From: Pedobacter sp. SYSU D00535
GTDB taxonomy: Bacteria > Bacteroidota > Bacteroidia > Sphingobacteriales > Sphingobacteriaceae
DNA length: 64,000 nucleotides
Direction of reading: 5' to 3'
Assembly (NCBI RefSeq): GCF_017355855.1
Contig: NZ_JAFEWD010000004.1
Location: forward strand, 248,001-312,000
In this document: piece after piece, positions 11,918 through 47,027 of the stretch
Layout of the letters: the number at the start of each line of letters is the position of its first letter
How positions within the stretch are numbered: the first letter of the stretch is position 1
The notes under the pieces: model-generated
Told to the model about the DNA's origin: nothing
The model's database searches: none
What the model saw: the letters and a program-made list of their open reading frames with translations, nothing else
Program-made: the position numbers and the translations under genes

Positions 11918-11968
11918 TTTGCAAAATATAGACCGGCATTTTATCTTTGTATCAAAGGTTCTTTAACA
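11918..11968 (+). promoter_or_regulatory. Promoter and boxA-like leader, tRNA-like unit 1
   Basis: -33 TTTG at 11918-11921, 20 nt spacer, -7 TATCTTTG at 11942-11949, then GTTCTTTAACA at 11958-11968. The last element closely matches bacterial rRNA boxA (core CTCTTTAACA) that recruits the NusB/S10 antitermination factors. The tRNA-like body begins 14 nt later. Confidence 0.7.
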
Positions 11969-11982
11969 GGATGTTTTGATAC

Positions 11983-12092
11983 TGTAGGGTGGTGAAACTG
12001 GCAGACACACCTCCTTGTCTCGGTGGCGGAGATCATGGGAAATCCAGCAATGGGCTAACCACTCCTTGAAGGTTCGACTCCTTCCCCTACAG
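11983..12092 (+). tRNA. tRNA-like RNA, copy 1 (Leu-like body, GUC anticodon, giant variable arm)
   Basis: 110-nt cloverleaf. Acceptor stem TGTAGGG/CCCTACA (7 bp) with G73 and no encoded CCA; T8; D arm GTG-AAACTGGCAGA-CAC as in tRNA-Leu; anticodon arm CCTCC-TTGTCTC-GGTGG (one T-T mismatch), reading GTC at 34-36; T arm GAAGG-TTCGACT-CCTTC, fully canonical. Between anticodon and T arms lies an unusually long (about 40 nt) variable arm: GGAG/CTCC base stem, TGG/CCA, internal loop GAAA/CTAA, and TCCA/TGGG capped by GCAA. I see no usual tRNA with such an arm. The gene has its own promoter, boxA-like leader and terminator. Whether it is charged or used in translation is unknown. Confidence 0.75.
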
Positions 12093-12130
12093 CTCCTTTC
12101 ATATAATTTAGGTTTATAATTGGTTAGTTT

Positions 12131-12162
12131 GAGCTCTCGCCCATCGAGGGCTTTATTTTTTT
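12131..12162 (+). terminator. Intrinsic terminator, tRNA-like unit 1
   Basis: AGCTCTCG-CCCAT-CGAGGGCT stem (8 bp, one T-G wobble) followed by TTATTTTTTT. About 39 nt after the RNA body. Confidence 0.85.
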
Positions 12163-12324
12163 AAAAAGATTTTGACTCTCCACAATAAATTCGAATTCAA
12201 AAAGTTTAAGAAATTGTAAAGTTGACAATTAAAGCAGCGATTTTTTGTCGTTTGTTCCAATATTGGTACTGAACTTTGCTCTGTGTTTTCGAAATGTTAA
12301 AAGTTGTTAATTTTTGTTGAAAAA

Positions 12325-12373
12325 TTTGCAAAAACGATCCAGGTCACCTTATATTTGTACCAGTTCTTTAACA
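12325..12373 (+). promoter_or_regulatory. Promoter and boxA-like leader, tRNA-like unit 2
   Basis: -33 TTTG at 12325-12328, 21 nt spacer, -7 TATATTTG at 12350-12357, boxA-like GTTCTTTAACA at 12363-12373. Spacer sequence differs from the other units, yet all promoter elements are kept. Confidence 0.7.
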
Positions 12374-12386
12374 AAGCAACAGATAC

Positions 12387-12496
12387 TGTAGGATGGTGAA
12401 ACAGGCAGACACACCTCCTTGTCTCGGTGGCGGAGAAATCAGGAAATCCAGCAATGGACTAACTACTCCTTGAAGGTTCGATTCCTTCTCCTACAG
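12387..12496 (+). tRNA. tRNA-like RNA, copy 2 (most divergent copy; carries compensatory changes)
   Basis: Same 110-nt fold as copy 1. It is the informative copy. Acceptor pair 7-66 is A-T (TGTAGGA/TCCTACA) where copy 1 has G-C. In the second stem of the variable arm the central pair is A-T where the others have G-C, a change on both sides. The pair closing the tetraloop stem is T-A (TCCA/TGGA) where the others have T-G. D loop is AAACAGGCAGA and T loop TTCGATT. The anticodon arm with GTC, the GGAG/CTCC stem and the GCAA tetraloop are unchanged. One outer variable-arm pair becomes C-A. The preserved pairing argues for a functional structured RNA. Confidence 0.75.
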
Positions 12497-12534
12497 CTCC
12501 TTTCATATAATTTAGGTTTATAATTGGTTAGTTT

Positions 12535-12567
12535 GAGCTCTCGCCCATCGAGAGCTTTATTTTTTTT
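12535..12567 (+). terminator. Intrinsic terminator, tRNA-like unit 2
   Basis: AGCTCTCG-CCCAT-CGAGAGCT perfect 8-bp stem, then TTATTTTTTTT. Confidence 0.85.
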
Positions 12568-12692
12568 AAATCCCTGGTTAGCTCCCTGTTATTTATCAAT
12601 CGGTTTATGATTTCTGAATCACTGATATTATTGGCAACAGTATCGTGTTGTTCTTGCGAAACTGATATGAAAAAGTTTTTTTTGTTAAAATA

Positions 12693-12742
12693 TTTGCAAG
12701 TTACTATAGAAGTCGTTATGTTTGTATCAGTTCTTTAAAACA
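12693..12742 (+). promoter_or_regulatory. Promoter and boxA-like leader, tRNA-like unit 3
   Basis: -33 TTTG at 12693-12696, 20 nt spacer, -7 TATGTTTG at 12717-12724, boxA-like GTTCTTTAAAACA at 12730-12742 (two A longer than in units 1 and 2). Confidence 0.7.
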
Positions 12743-12753
12743 GAAATAAATAC

Positions 12754-12863
12754 TGTAGGGTGGTGGAATTGGCAGACACACCTCCTTGTCTCGGTGGCGG
12801 AGATTTTGGGAAATCCAGCAATGGGCAAACCACTCCTTGAAGGTTCGACTCCTTCTCCTACAG
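12754..12863 (+). tRNA. tRNA-like RNA, copy 3
   Basis: 110-nt cloverleaf as in copy 1. Acceptor pair 7-66 is G-T (TGTAGGG/TCCTACA). D loop GAATTGGCAGA. Variable arm GGAG-ATTT-TGG-GAAA-TCCA-GCAA-TGGG-CAAA-CCA-CTCC: three stacked stems separated by a 4-nt bulge and a symmetrical 4x4 internal loop, capped by a GNRA tetraloop. GTC anticodon, T37, C38 and G73 are kept. Confidence 0.75.
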
Positions 12864-12901
12864 CTCCTTTCATATAATTTAGGTTTATAATTGGTTAGTT
12901 T

Positions 12902-12935
12902 GAGCTCTCGCCCATCGAGAGCTTTATTTTTTTTT
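12902..12935 (+). terminator. Intrinsic terminator, tRNA-like unit 3
   Basis: Perfect AGCTCTCG/CGAGAGCT stem, CCCAT loop, TTATTTTTTTTT tail. Confidence 0.85.
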
Positions 12936-13085
12936 AAATCCCTGGTTAGCTTCCCTGTTATTTATCAATCGGTCTATGATTTCTGAATCACTGATATTAT
13001 TGGCAATAGTATTGTTTTGTTCTTGCGAAATTGATATGAAAAAGTTTTTTTTGTTAAAATATTTGCAAGTTACTATAGAAGTCGT

Positions 13086-13111
13086 TATGTTTGTATCAGT
13101 TCTTTAAAACA
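13086..13111 (+). promoter_or_regulatory. Promoter and boxA-like leader, tRNA-like unit 4
   Basis: -7 TATGTTTG at 13086-13093 with TTTG about 20 nt upstream, then GTTCTTTAAAACA at 13099-13111; same as unit 3. Confidence 0.7.
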
Positions 13112-13122
13112 GAAATAAATAC

Positions 13123-13232
13123 TGTAGGGTGGTGGAACTGGCAGACACACCTCCTTGTCTCGGTGGCGGAGATTTTGGAAAATCCAGCAATGGGCAAACC
13201 ACTCCTTGAAGGTTCGACTCCTTCTCCTACAG
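13123..13232 (+). tRNA. tRNA-like RNA, copy 4
   Basis: Differs from copy 3 only in the D loop (GAACTGGCAGA) and in one base of the variable-arm internal loop (AAAA instead of GAAA), both unpaired in the proposed fold. Acceptor pair 7-66 is G-T. All stems, the GTC anticodon loop and the GCAA cap are kept. 369 bp from copy 3, with its own promoter and terminator. Confidence 0.75.
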
Positions 13233-13270
13233 CTCCTTTCATATAATTTAGGTTTATAATTGGTTAGTTT

Positions 13271-13303
13271 GAGCTCTCGCCCATCGAGAGCTTTATTTTT
13301 TTT
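13271..13303 (+). terminator. Intrinsic terminator, tRNA-like unit 4
   Basis: Perfect AGCTCTCG/CGAGAGCT stem with CCCAT loop and a TTATTTTTTTT tail. Confidence 0.85.
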
Positions 13304-13453
13304 AAATCCCTGGTTAGCTTCCCTGTTATTTATCAATCGGTTTATAATTTCTGAATCACTGATATTATTGGCAACGGTATCATGTTGTTCTTGCGAAACT
13401 GATATGAAAAAGTTTTTTTTGTTAAAATATTTGCAAGTTATTATAGAAGTCGT

Positions 13454-13479
13454 TATGTTTGTATCAGTTCTTTAAAACA
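13454..13479 (+). promoter_or_regulatory. Promoter and boxA-like leader, tRNA-like unit 5
   Basis: -7 TATGTTTG at 13454-13461, boxA-like GTTCTTTAAAACA at 13467-13479; same layout as units 3 and 4. Confidence 0.7.
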
Positions 13480-13490
13480 GAAATAAATAC

Positions 13491-13600
13491 TGTAGGGTGG
13501 TGGAACTGGCAGACACACCTCCTTGTCTCGGTGGCGGAGATTTTGGGAAATCCAGCAATGGGCAAACCACTCCTTGAAGGTTCGACTCCTTCTCCTACAG
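13491..13600 (+). tRNA. tRNA-like RNA, copy 5
   Basis: Variable arm identical to copy 3; D loop GAACTGGCAGA as in copy 4. 110 nt, acceptor pair 7-66 G-T, GTC anticodon, G73, no encoded CCA. It is the last of the array; I find no sixth copy or fragment downstream. Antisense ORFs across copies 4 and 5 are shadows. Confidence 0.75.
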
Positions 13601-13637
13601 CTCCTTTCATATATTTAGGTTTATAATTGGTTAGTTT

Positions 13638-13664
13638 GAGCTCTCGCCCATCGAGAGCTTTTTT
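13638..13664 (+). terminator. Intrinsic terminator, tRNA-like unit 5
   Basis: Perfect AGCTCTCG/CGAGAGCT stem, CCCAT loop, followed by TTTTTTATT. The repeat unit ends here. Confidence 0.85.
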
Positions 13665-14591
13665 ATTGTGCGCCCGGCGAGGCGTAATTTTTTCCAGGAG
13701 ATCTAAGTCCTCTATCGGCTGGGCAGGGGGATTATTTGCTGAACAGCAGGGGGCGGGCGGTTCGAAATCCGAAGGAAGTTGAAGATACATCGCTGGTCTG
13801 ACGAACGGAAACCGTATAGGAGAGTCGTGACGGATAAGACGCCACTACTATAAGGTTCAAAAACAAATATTTCTACTTCGTCCAAAGAACTTCTTCTTAG
13901 TTTTTTAAGCGTCAGCCTTCGGTACTGCCTTGAGCCGCAGGATATTCAAACGAGGTGTATTCAGTTTCTTTCAATTTGTATTTTCGACAGACAGAATTAT
14001 AATTGATTGTTTACGTGTTATATTAGAGGCTCGAATGTGACTTGCCCCCCAAAAAAAAGGTGTTTGAACACTTAAGGGGGTAGGAATATTTTCATTTCGT
14101 CTCTCCAGTCCGAATTAACTGCCTGATCGTTGCACTTCTGCTGTCCCGACCTTGTTTTATCTGCCCCGTCTCCTAGCCCGAGCTGGTCCAAGTCTCGGCC
14201 AAGTTCCCTATGTCTCTCCGTTGATTCCGCATCGAGTCCACATTGAGTCCACTTTTTTGCGGAAAAGGGTGGACTCATCCTGGATCCTTAGCCGAGTGAA
14301 GGCAGGGTGATAGGAGGTTTGGATGGGAGCTAGGAGTGACTGGATAGGGAGCTGAGGCAGAAGTACCTGCTCGGCAAAAACGCTATAAGTCTTTTTTCCG
14401 GCGCAGCGTTGCTTGTTGTATCGCCTTAAAGATTATTTCGCCGTTAATCTTCTCAACATTTTGACTATCAAACTTTTGGTCGGGAACACTTGCGGAATGA
14501 GCCTGGCGACTCAGGTCTCTTCTTTATTGTGGCTAGCTTTTTGCTTAAGAAGGTGCGGCTTTAGGGCCGTTATAATTAAATATCTAACACT
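13665..14591. other. Gene-free stretch of about 0.93 kb
   Basis: No convincing coding frame. ORFs here lack protein-like composition and ribosome sites. I see two hairpins. A C6...G5 clamp around GTG-TTTGAA-CAC lies at about 14044-14082. A 9-bp inverted repeat TGAGTCCAC/GTGGACTCA lies at 14244-14252 and 14269-14277, preceded by a second direct copy of GAGTCCAC at 14234-14241. The part from about 14280 to 14370 is purine-rich on the plus strand. Nothing I can assign. Confidence 0.6.
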
Positions 14592-46835: not shown

Positions 46836-46918
46836 GTTGTATTAGGATTAAACTGCTTCTGGAGAATGAGAATGAATAATATAAGATCGAGGACAAAGCA
46901 GATGAAAAAATAAAAAAT

Positions 46919-47015
46919 GGGCTAGCACCTTCTATCGCACCGCTACAACCCTCTACCCTTGCTGCGTTCCCACCCTGGGGGAGTTCAAGAGGAGCTGGTC
47001 GTAGAAGACTAACCC
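46919..47015 (-). ncRNA. ffs: Signal recognition particle RNA (4.5S, small bacterial type)
   Basis: About 97 nt. The apical domain-IV loop is recognisable on the minus strand: CCCCCAGG...GGGAAC-GCAGCAAGGG, carrying the GGAA-like tetraloop region and the conserved AGCA of the Ffh-binding internal loop. The ends pair as GGGTTAG/CTAGCCC. A TACTTTTG promoter box lies 5 nt before the 5' end, exactly where expected, and a T-rich run (ATTTTTTATTTTTT) follows the 3' end. With Ffh it targets nascent membrane proteins. Overlapping ORFs on this stretch are shadows. Confidence 0.92.
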
Positions 47016-47019
47016 GCGA

Positions 47020-47027
47020 CAAAAGTA
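47020..47027 (-). promoter_or_regulatory. ffs promoter -7 box (TACTTTTG)
   Basis: TAnnTTTG match placing transcription start at about 47015-47016, equal to the RNA 5' end. Confidence 0.75.

Follow-up and report, generated by a model that had tools for sequence, protein, structure and literature searches.

Tandem tRNA-like RNA genes in Pedobacter sp. SYSU D00535: a candidate non-decoding carrier tRNA for asparagine synthesis in the Bacteroidia

Between positions 11918 and 13667 of a 64,000-nucleotide stretch of the genome of Pedobacter sp. SYSU D00535 (contig NZ_JAFEWD010000004.1, positions 248,001 to 312,000, forward strand; hereafter the window) there are five tandem genes for a tRNA-like RNA of 110 nt, all on the + strand, and the question raised by this locus is what such an RNA could be for. 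An original prediction, made by a model from the sequence of the window, had described five 110-nt cloverleaf genes, with starts exactly where we find them, and had offered three guesses as to function. Of these, the non-translational aminoacyl carrier agrees best with the evidence, the decoding tRNA of unusual specificity agrees poorly with it, and a regulatory RNA is plausible for the 3′ trailer only. The reading favoured here, which on balance we think probable, is that the RNA is a carrier tRNA set aside for tRNA-dependent asparagine synthesis and not used in decoding.

That the RNA is unlike known tRNAs and belongs to no recognised family, as originally proposed, was borne out by the searches made. 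ARAGORN called no tRNA in the 64-kb window, Rfam gave no match on the array at the gathering threshold, and gathering and relaxed thresholds applied to the window and to longer forms of the RNA produced nothing convincing for it, the sub-threshold matches all being weak (tRNA-Sec, 16-18 bits; FopS, ~18 bits; PyrG leader). The five copies and a sixth elsewhere in the same genome (C17:56066-56177) are likewise absent from that genome's RF00005 matches (E<=10). No description of the RNA was found in Rfam or in the open-access literature, subscription papers lying outside the search. Since ARAGORN and Rfam miss these RNAs, many Bacteroidota genomes probably lack annotation of them.

The acceptor stem has 7 bp, with U1-A72 and G2-C71, and is followed by U8 and G9, a D stem of 3 bp, a Leu-like D loop containing G18 and G19, the anticodon arm CCUCC-UUGUCUC-GGUGG, a standard T arm, G73 and an encoded C74. 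The variable arm is very long and contains two stems (GGAG/CUCC and the short UGG/CCA), together with an internal loop, GAAA/CUAA, and an apical hairpin that varies. An acceptor stem of 8 bp, drawing in the C that precedes U1, was rejected because among 111 sequences this position has C 50 times, A 43 times and T 18 times, as was a kissing of the variable-arm AUGGGC with the terminator loop GCCCAUC, which is not conserved among relatives. Membership of the tRNA-Sec family was also discarded (the acceptor is 7 bp rather than 8 or 9, the anticodon GUC rather than UCA, and RF01852 gives 16-18 bits against a cut-off of 47), and tRNA-Leu would require A73, whereas G73 is found in 152 of 153 distinct sequences. 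Of the aligned tRNAs from the same genome, the one most similar by eye is tRNA-Leu(GAG), with the anticodon arm CCAUC-UUGAGGG-GGUGG; its D arm and anticodon stem are clearly akin, and it is from tRNA-Leu that the RNA is apparently derived, although it has G73 in place of A73, a GUC anticodon and a far longer variable arm.

The cloverleaf is not due to chance. Its pairing is present in 97.4% of the cells of an alignment that was fitted to a covariance model, which favours pairing; compensatory changes occur at 21 of 31 pairs and are spread over all seven helices, and covariation is 0.388 against 0.164 for shuffled alignments, while slid controls gave at most 0.125 with at most 60% paired. A lone copy folds no better than its shuffles (z = 0.68), so that support for the cloverleaf comes from sequence comparison. 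C74 stands next to G73 in all 111 distinct sequences, whereas the bases further 3′ vary; since most of the ordinary tRNA genes inspected in the same genome likewise encode the discriminator and the following C, this suggests that the ends of the RNA are processed in the manner of a tRNA.

As to distribution, a pattern scan returned at least 118 stretches, the named ones among those listed all being from Sphingobacteriaceae (Mucilaginibacter, Pedobacter, Solitalea, Hufsiella, Arcticibacter and others). The covariance-model search of Bacteroidota genomes that had been recommended at the outset, made with models R1 and the broader R2 over 395 genomes of the class, recovered a class-wide family. 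R2 scores fall into two groups: 75-122 bits for the tRNA-like RNAs, whose length is 107-195 nt, and below ~64 bits at ~80-85 nt for the remaining matches, which are taken to be ordinary tRNA-Leu genes (one ambiguous match, in G093 with 68 bits and 76 nt, was left out of the counts). The RNA is present in 68 of the 395 genomes, spread over 19 families. Longer forms, which reach ~175 nt among the aligned sequences, often contain an extra GGGUUGACCAC motif, and in Pedobacter a short form adjoins a long one. There was no match among viral contigs (searched with the exact core pattern), phages or plasmids.

The evidence that bears most directly on function lies in which positions are kept. The 153 distinct sequences compared comprise 89 mostly from Sphingobacteriaceae and 64 from other families, with a few shared. 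Near-invariant among them are G34 (150/153), U35 and C36 (both 153/153), C38 (152/153) and the G73 already mentioned, while U1-A72 and G2-C71 are each found in 153/153 and A at 20a in 150 of the 150 sequences examined. The strong aspartate determinants are G73, G34, U35, C36 and C38, and amidation of aspartyl-tRNA needs U1-A72, being blocked in tRNA-Asp by G1-C72 and U20a (PMC9976931). The RNA thus has the strong aspartate determinants and, in U1-A72 and the lack of U at 20a, the features expected of a GatCAB substrate. In its own genome normal tRNA-Asp has G1-C72, while tRNA-Asn and tRNA-Gln have U1-A72; judged by sequence, therefore, the RNA is an Asp-type anticodon loop joined to an Asn-type acceptor end, because the GUC/C38 set is kept and U1-A72 is as in tRNA-Asn.

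Other positions are much less constrained: U and C both occur at 32, 17/153 sequences have G or C at 33, and 37 is U in 106, C in 32, G in 13 and A in 2, making a pyrimidine in 138/153. In decoding tRNAs, U33 and a purine at 37 are near-universal, and the RNA therefore departs from the elongator pattern. The T stem has G49-C65 in 149 and A51-U63 in 146 sequences, as against G49-U65 and G51-C63 in the tRNA-Asp of the same genome; under the rules for EF-Tu such pairs predict weaker binding, so that the RNA would be predicted to bind EF-Tu less well than tRNA-Asp does. Within the anticodon arm, CACCUCCUU (window copies, e.g. 12008-12016), which we take to be identical to the 16S anti-Shine-Dalgarno sequence, is kept by most Sphingobacteriaceae copies and not by other families; this likeness was accordingly rejected as a family-wide feature.

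If the RNA is a substrate for GatCAB, the two might be expected to occur together. With presence of GatCAB judged from GatB (PF02934), it is found in 306 of the 395 class genomes and in 68/68 of those having the RNA (Fisher 5e-9; this and the P values below are too small, as they treat related genomes as independent). Sixty relatives were compared for the RNA (by blastn), GatB, GlnRS, AsnB and AsnA. Among home-family genomes that encode GlnRS, 21 have both RNA and GatB, 1 the RNA only, none GatB only, and 9 neither (P = 5e-7); for all 60 relatives the corresponding numbers are 23, 1, 1 and 15 (P = 6e-9). The co-occurrence is seen in several genera and in more than one family. The home-family genomes with GatB and no RNA (G009, G011, G024, G025 and G033; RNA checked by blastn only) all lack GlnRS, and it is for this reason that they need GatCAB to make Gln-tRNA.

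A complementary pattern is seen for asparagine synthetase. Bona fide E. coli-type AsnB (~560 aa) is encoded by 10 of 16 relatives without GatB, as against none of 44 with it; four of these proteins exceed the AsnB equivalog cut-off of 499 with scores of 920-949 bits, and one of the four also matches E. coli AsnB, PDB 1ct9. Seven of the ten genomes are home-family members without the RNA, while the other two home-family genomes lacking both RNA and GatB (G007 and G031, 1.7-1.8 Mb) have no AsnB. Genomes with the RNA have at most longer AsnB-like paralogs, and in six of them (G006, G019, G026, G030, G034 and G037) AsnA is absent and the AsnB family gave no match above the cut-off. The small genome G023, which has the RNA and was read piecewise, encodes both a bacterial-type AspRS, with the motif SRDLG, and AsnRS; we assume that at this site Leu marks discriminating AspRS and His the Pseudomonas-type relaxed enzymes.

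The pathway that we infer would run as follows. Each gene would be transcribed singly, both ends trimmed as in a tRNA, and CA added onto the encoded C74. AspRS would load aspartate through G34-U35-C36, C38 and G73, and GatCAB, reading U1-A72, would turn this Asp into Asn. The Asn-loaded GUC RNA would have to be kept from the ribosome, because otherwise Asn would enter at Asp codons, and the anticodon loop, the huge variable arm and a T stem with expected weak EF-Tu binding could together achieve this. Hydrolysis would finally free the asparagine for use by AsnRS and in metabolism, while some copies may additionally release a FopS-like small RNA (sRNA) from the trailer. Such a carrier would explain which positions are kept and which are not, the association with GatB, the complementary occurrence of AsnB, and why GatB is otherwise retained only where GlnRS is missing.

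There are, however, several observations that weigh against this reading, in addition to the non-independence of related genomes. The G1-C72 pair of bacterial tRNA-Asp, which aids catalysis by AspRS (PMC9976931), is absent, U1-A72 being universal in its place, and position 10, where G is a minor Asp determinant, varies among G, A and U. Since tRNA-Asn also has U1-A72, GatCAB could act there if AspRS were relaxed. Many genomes with the RNA, that of the window included, encode longer AsnB-like paralogs that are possible asparagine makers; the two in the latter genome lie among glycosyltransferase-like genes and score 271 and 258 bits, below the AsnB equivalog cut-off. GatB was not detected in G028 (a 180-contig draft), which has the RNA, G047 has GlnRS and no RNA together with an odd GatB in a 1120-aa frame, and three RNAs have C or U at position 34, giving Glu-type anticodons. 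As regards these last (L250, L269 and L277, with UUC or CUC), U35, C36, C38 and U1-A72 are all retained, and they may hint at a glutamate/glutamine version. The GatB-like protein of G047 is an example from family f12, in which GatB scores are lower.

Other readings of the same facts must be weighed. Conceivably the Asn (or Asp) on the RNA is passed to an acceptor (lipid, peptide or cell-wall precursor), the product then not being free asparagine; a non-decoding, tRNA-processed RNA with conserved AspRS and GatCAB features would suit this too, and a precedent exists in the non-proteinogenic tRNA-Gly of Staphylococcus (PMC9976931). That tRNA is likewise dedicated to a task outside translation, although it serves peptidoglycan, is of normal size, and involves another amino acid and phylum. 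We allow this possibility a small but appreciable chance: a free-Asn synthetase, AsnB, occurs in genomes lacking both RNA and GatB, which suggests free asparagine as the product, and no candidate transferase turned up, albeit without any systematic search for one. A scaffold joining AspRS and GatCAB, with ordinary tRNA-Asn as the substrate, seems to us unlikely, as it would have no need of invariant C74, G73 and U1-A72, and the AspRS of G023 resembles discriminating enzymes if the residue rule assumed above is right. It would nonetheless lead one to expect an identical co-distribution, tRNA-Asn does carry U1-A72, and transamidosomes are complexes containing tRNA (PMC9976931).

Charging by SerRS, or by another synthetase that reads long variable arms, is suggested by the combination of such an arm with G73, as in tRNA-Ser; but as SerRS disregards the anticodon (PMC9976931), the near-invariant GUC-N-C would go unexplained, and with a Leu-like D arm as well the idea is very improbable. 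It is equally hard to credit an extra decoding tRNA-Asp(GUC), for all that the anticodon, the canonical T and D arms and G73 would allow it, given the pyrimidine at 37, the non-U33 (11% of sequences), U1-A72, the length of 107-195 nt, a U29-U41 mismatch in Sphingobacteriaceae and the presence of normal tRNA-Asp.

The trailer requires separate consideration, since it is here that a regulatory function might be sought. Copies of its module under other promoters are found in the same genome, where they appear to be sRNAs in their own right. FopS sRNAs of B. thetaiotaomicron, which have a 5′ single-stranded seed followed by a terminator, repress SusC mRNAs (PMC11697453), and on this pattern the RNA could be a regulatory sRNA acting through its 3′ FopS-like module, with the tRNA-like part as stabiliser or processing signal. 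Like the FopS/GibS family (RF04319), the trailer is a multicopy stretch ahead of a terminator hairpin; it differs in being fused behind a tRNA-like RNA and in scoring 18.3-18.5 bits, well under the Rfam gathering threshold of 56. In the predicted trailer fold the terminator hairpin is present, yet part of the putative FopS-like seed is also paired. A match to the module lies downstream of 47 of the 111 distinct RNAs, making it an add-on, while the tRNA-like part is kept throughout. Action as an antisense to susC leaders was rejected, as complementary sequence in the same genome occurs almost only within the sRNA genes themselves and a search there yielded no target, and we consider a regulatory sRNA improbable as an account of the whole RNA. 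Trimming of the tRNA-like part may possibly free the trailer as an sRNA. The 3′ external transcribed spacer of the E. coli leuZ tRNA transcript is a case of a regulatory RNA in a tRNA trailer, differing in that it is a sponge from an ordinary tRNA operon. The apparent stand-alone sRNA genes (C13:429644, C10:4207, C11:535687, C13:408795, C15:114076 and C15:116128; L153, L160-L162, L173 and L174) have GGTTTATAATTGGTTAG or a near copy followed by C-rich-loop terminator hairpins, and form a FopS-like paralogous family in Sphingobacteriaceae.

Returning to the array itself, each unit has TTTGC, a 19-20-nt spacer and TAnnTTTG (elements that we take to be the Bacteroidota-type promoter consensus), then a 29-33-nt leader, the RNA, a trailer with TTTAGGTTTATAATTGGTTAG and a terminator hairpin of the form GAGCTCTC-GCCCATC-GAG(A/G)GC followed by a T-run (Table 1). 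The autonomy and tandem order claimed for these genes, each with its own promoter, leader and terminator of a shared type, are thus upheld. Copies 3-5 are near-identical units of ~368 bp, to which copy 2 is ~61% similar, and the array is a single local expansion of a class-wide RNA family. Copy number differs among relatives (7 matches in G006, 1-3 in most), and gene dose may therefore matter, as had been suggested.

Table 1 Features of the tRNA-like RNA array, with positions in the window
Feature	Position	Strand	Details
Copy 1 promoter	11918-11949	+	-33 TTTGC 11918-11922; -7 TATCTTTG 11942-11949; presumed Bacteroidota-type consensus
Copy 1 tRNA-like RNA	11983-12092	+	U1 to G73, encoded C74 at 12093; R1 128.4 bits and alignments; anticodon GUC 12017-12019; C38 12021; variable arm 12028-12065; T arm 12068-12084
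Copy 1 3′ trailer	12107-12160	+	FopS-like module TTTAGGTTTATAATTGGTTAG 12107-12127; terminator from 12131
Copy 2 promoter	12325-12357	+	
Copy 2 tRNA-like RNA	12387-12496	+	R1 122.6 bits
Copy 2 trailer module and terminator	12511-12564	+	
Copy 3 promoter	12693-12724	+	
Copy 3 tRNA-like RNA	12754-12863	+	R1 121.4 bits
Copy 3 trailer module and terminator	12878-12931	+	
Copy 4 promoter	13062-13093	+	
Copy 4 tRNA-like RNA	13123-13232	+	R1 121.0 bits
Copy 4 trailer module and terminator	13247-13300	+	
Copy 5 promoter	13430-13461	+	
Copy 5 tRNA-like RNA	13491-13600	+	R1 121.2 bits
Copy 5 trailer module and terminator	13614-13667	+	

The genes adjoining the array, for Hsp70 and a YflT-domain protein, showed no functional link to the RNA; that adjoining the sixth copy reads by eye, from its sequence, as an Lrp/AsnC-type regulator. 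Some other RNA features were also seen. A Bacteroidales small SRP RNA (RF04183, 103 bits) lies at 46915-47022 on the - strand of the window. Elsewhere in the same genome, an odd 94-nt tRNA (C12:193022-193114, L220), which ARAGORN reports with the unassigned four-base anticodon ‘gtaa’ and which scores 46.9 bits with the tRNA model, is possibly another tRNA-like RNA. At C13:407.2-408.2 kb of that genome (L210:760-1740), directly after two intact tRNA-Val(UAC) genes, there are three tandem ~360-bp repeats of a tRNA-Val 3′ piece and a GIY-YIG endonuclease-like fragment.

The closest known parallel to the proposed carrier is tRNA-dependent asparagine synthesis by non-discriminating AspRS (ND-AspRS) and GatCAB on tRNA-Asn, as in Bdellovibrio, Deinococcus and Thermus. 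Shared with that route are AspRS and GatCAB, the U1-A72 determinant, AsnRS and GlnRS alongside, and the lack of asparagine synthetase; but its substrate is an ordinary decoding tRNA-Asn, whereas that proposed here is a separate, non-decoding RNA with an Asp anticodon. Both tRNA-dependent asparagine synthesis and non-decoding tRNAs are known individually, and what appears to be new is their union in one dedicated RNA.

Taken at its broadest, the proposal is of a class-wide, ancient RNA cofactor, derived from a tRNA, separated from the genetic code and serving amino-acid biosynthesis alone, which a discriminating AspRS and GatCAB would use to build the cell's free asparagine, and in this form we regard it as evenly balanced between right and wrong. 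If true, it would explain in biological terms why bacteria already equipped with GlnRS and AsnRS have GatCAB, would show how tRNA-dependent asparagine synthesis can be supplied even by a discriminating AspRS, and would provide a clear case of a tRNA devoted to making an amino acid rather than to reading codons.

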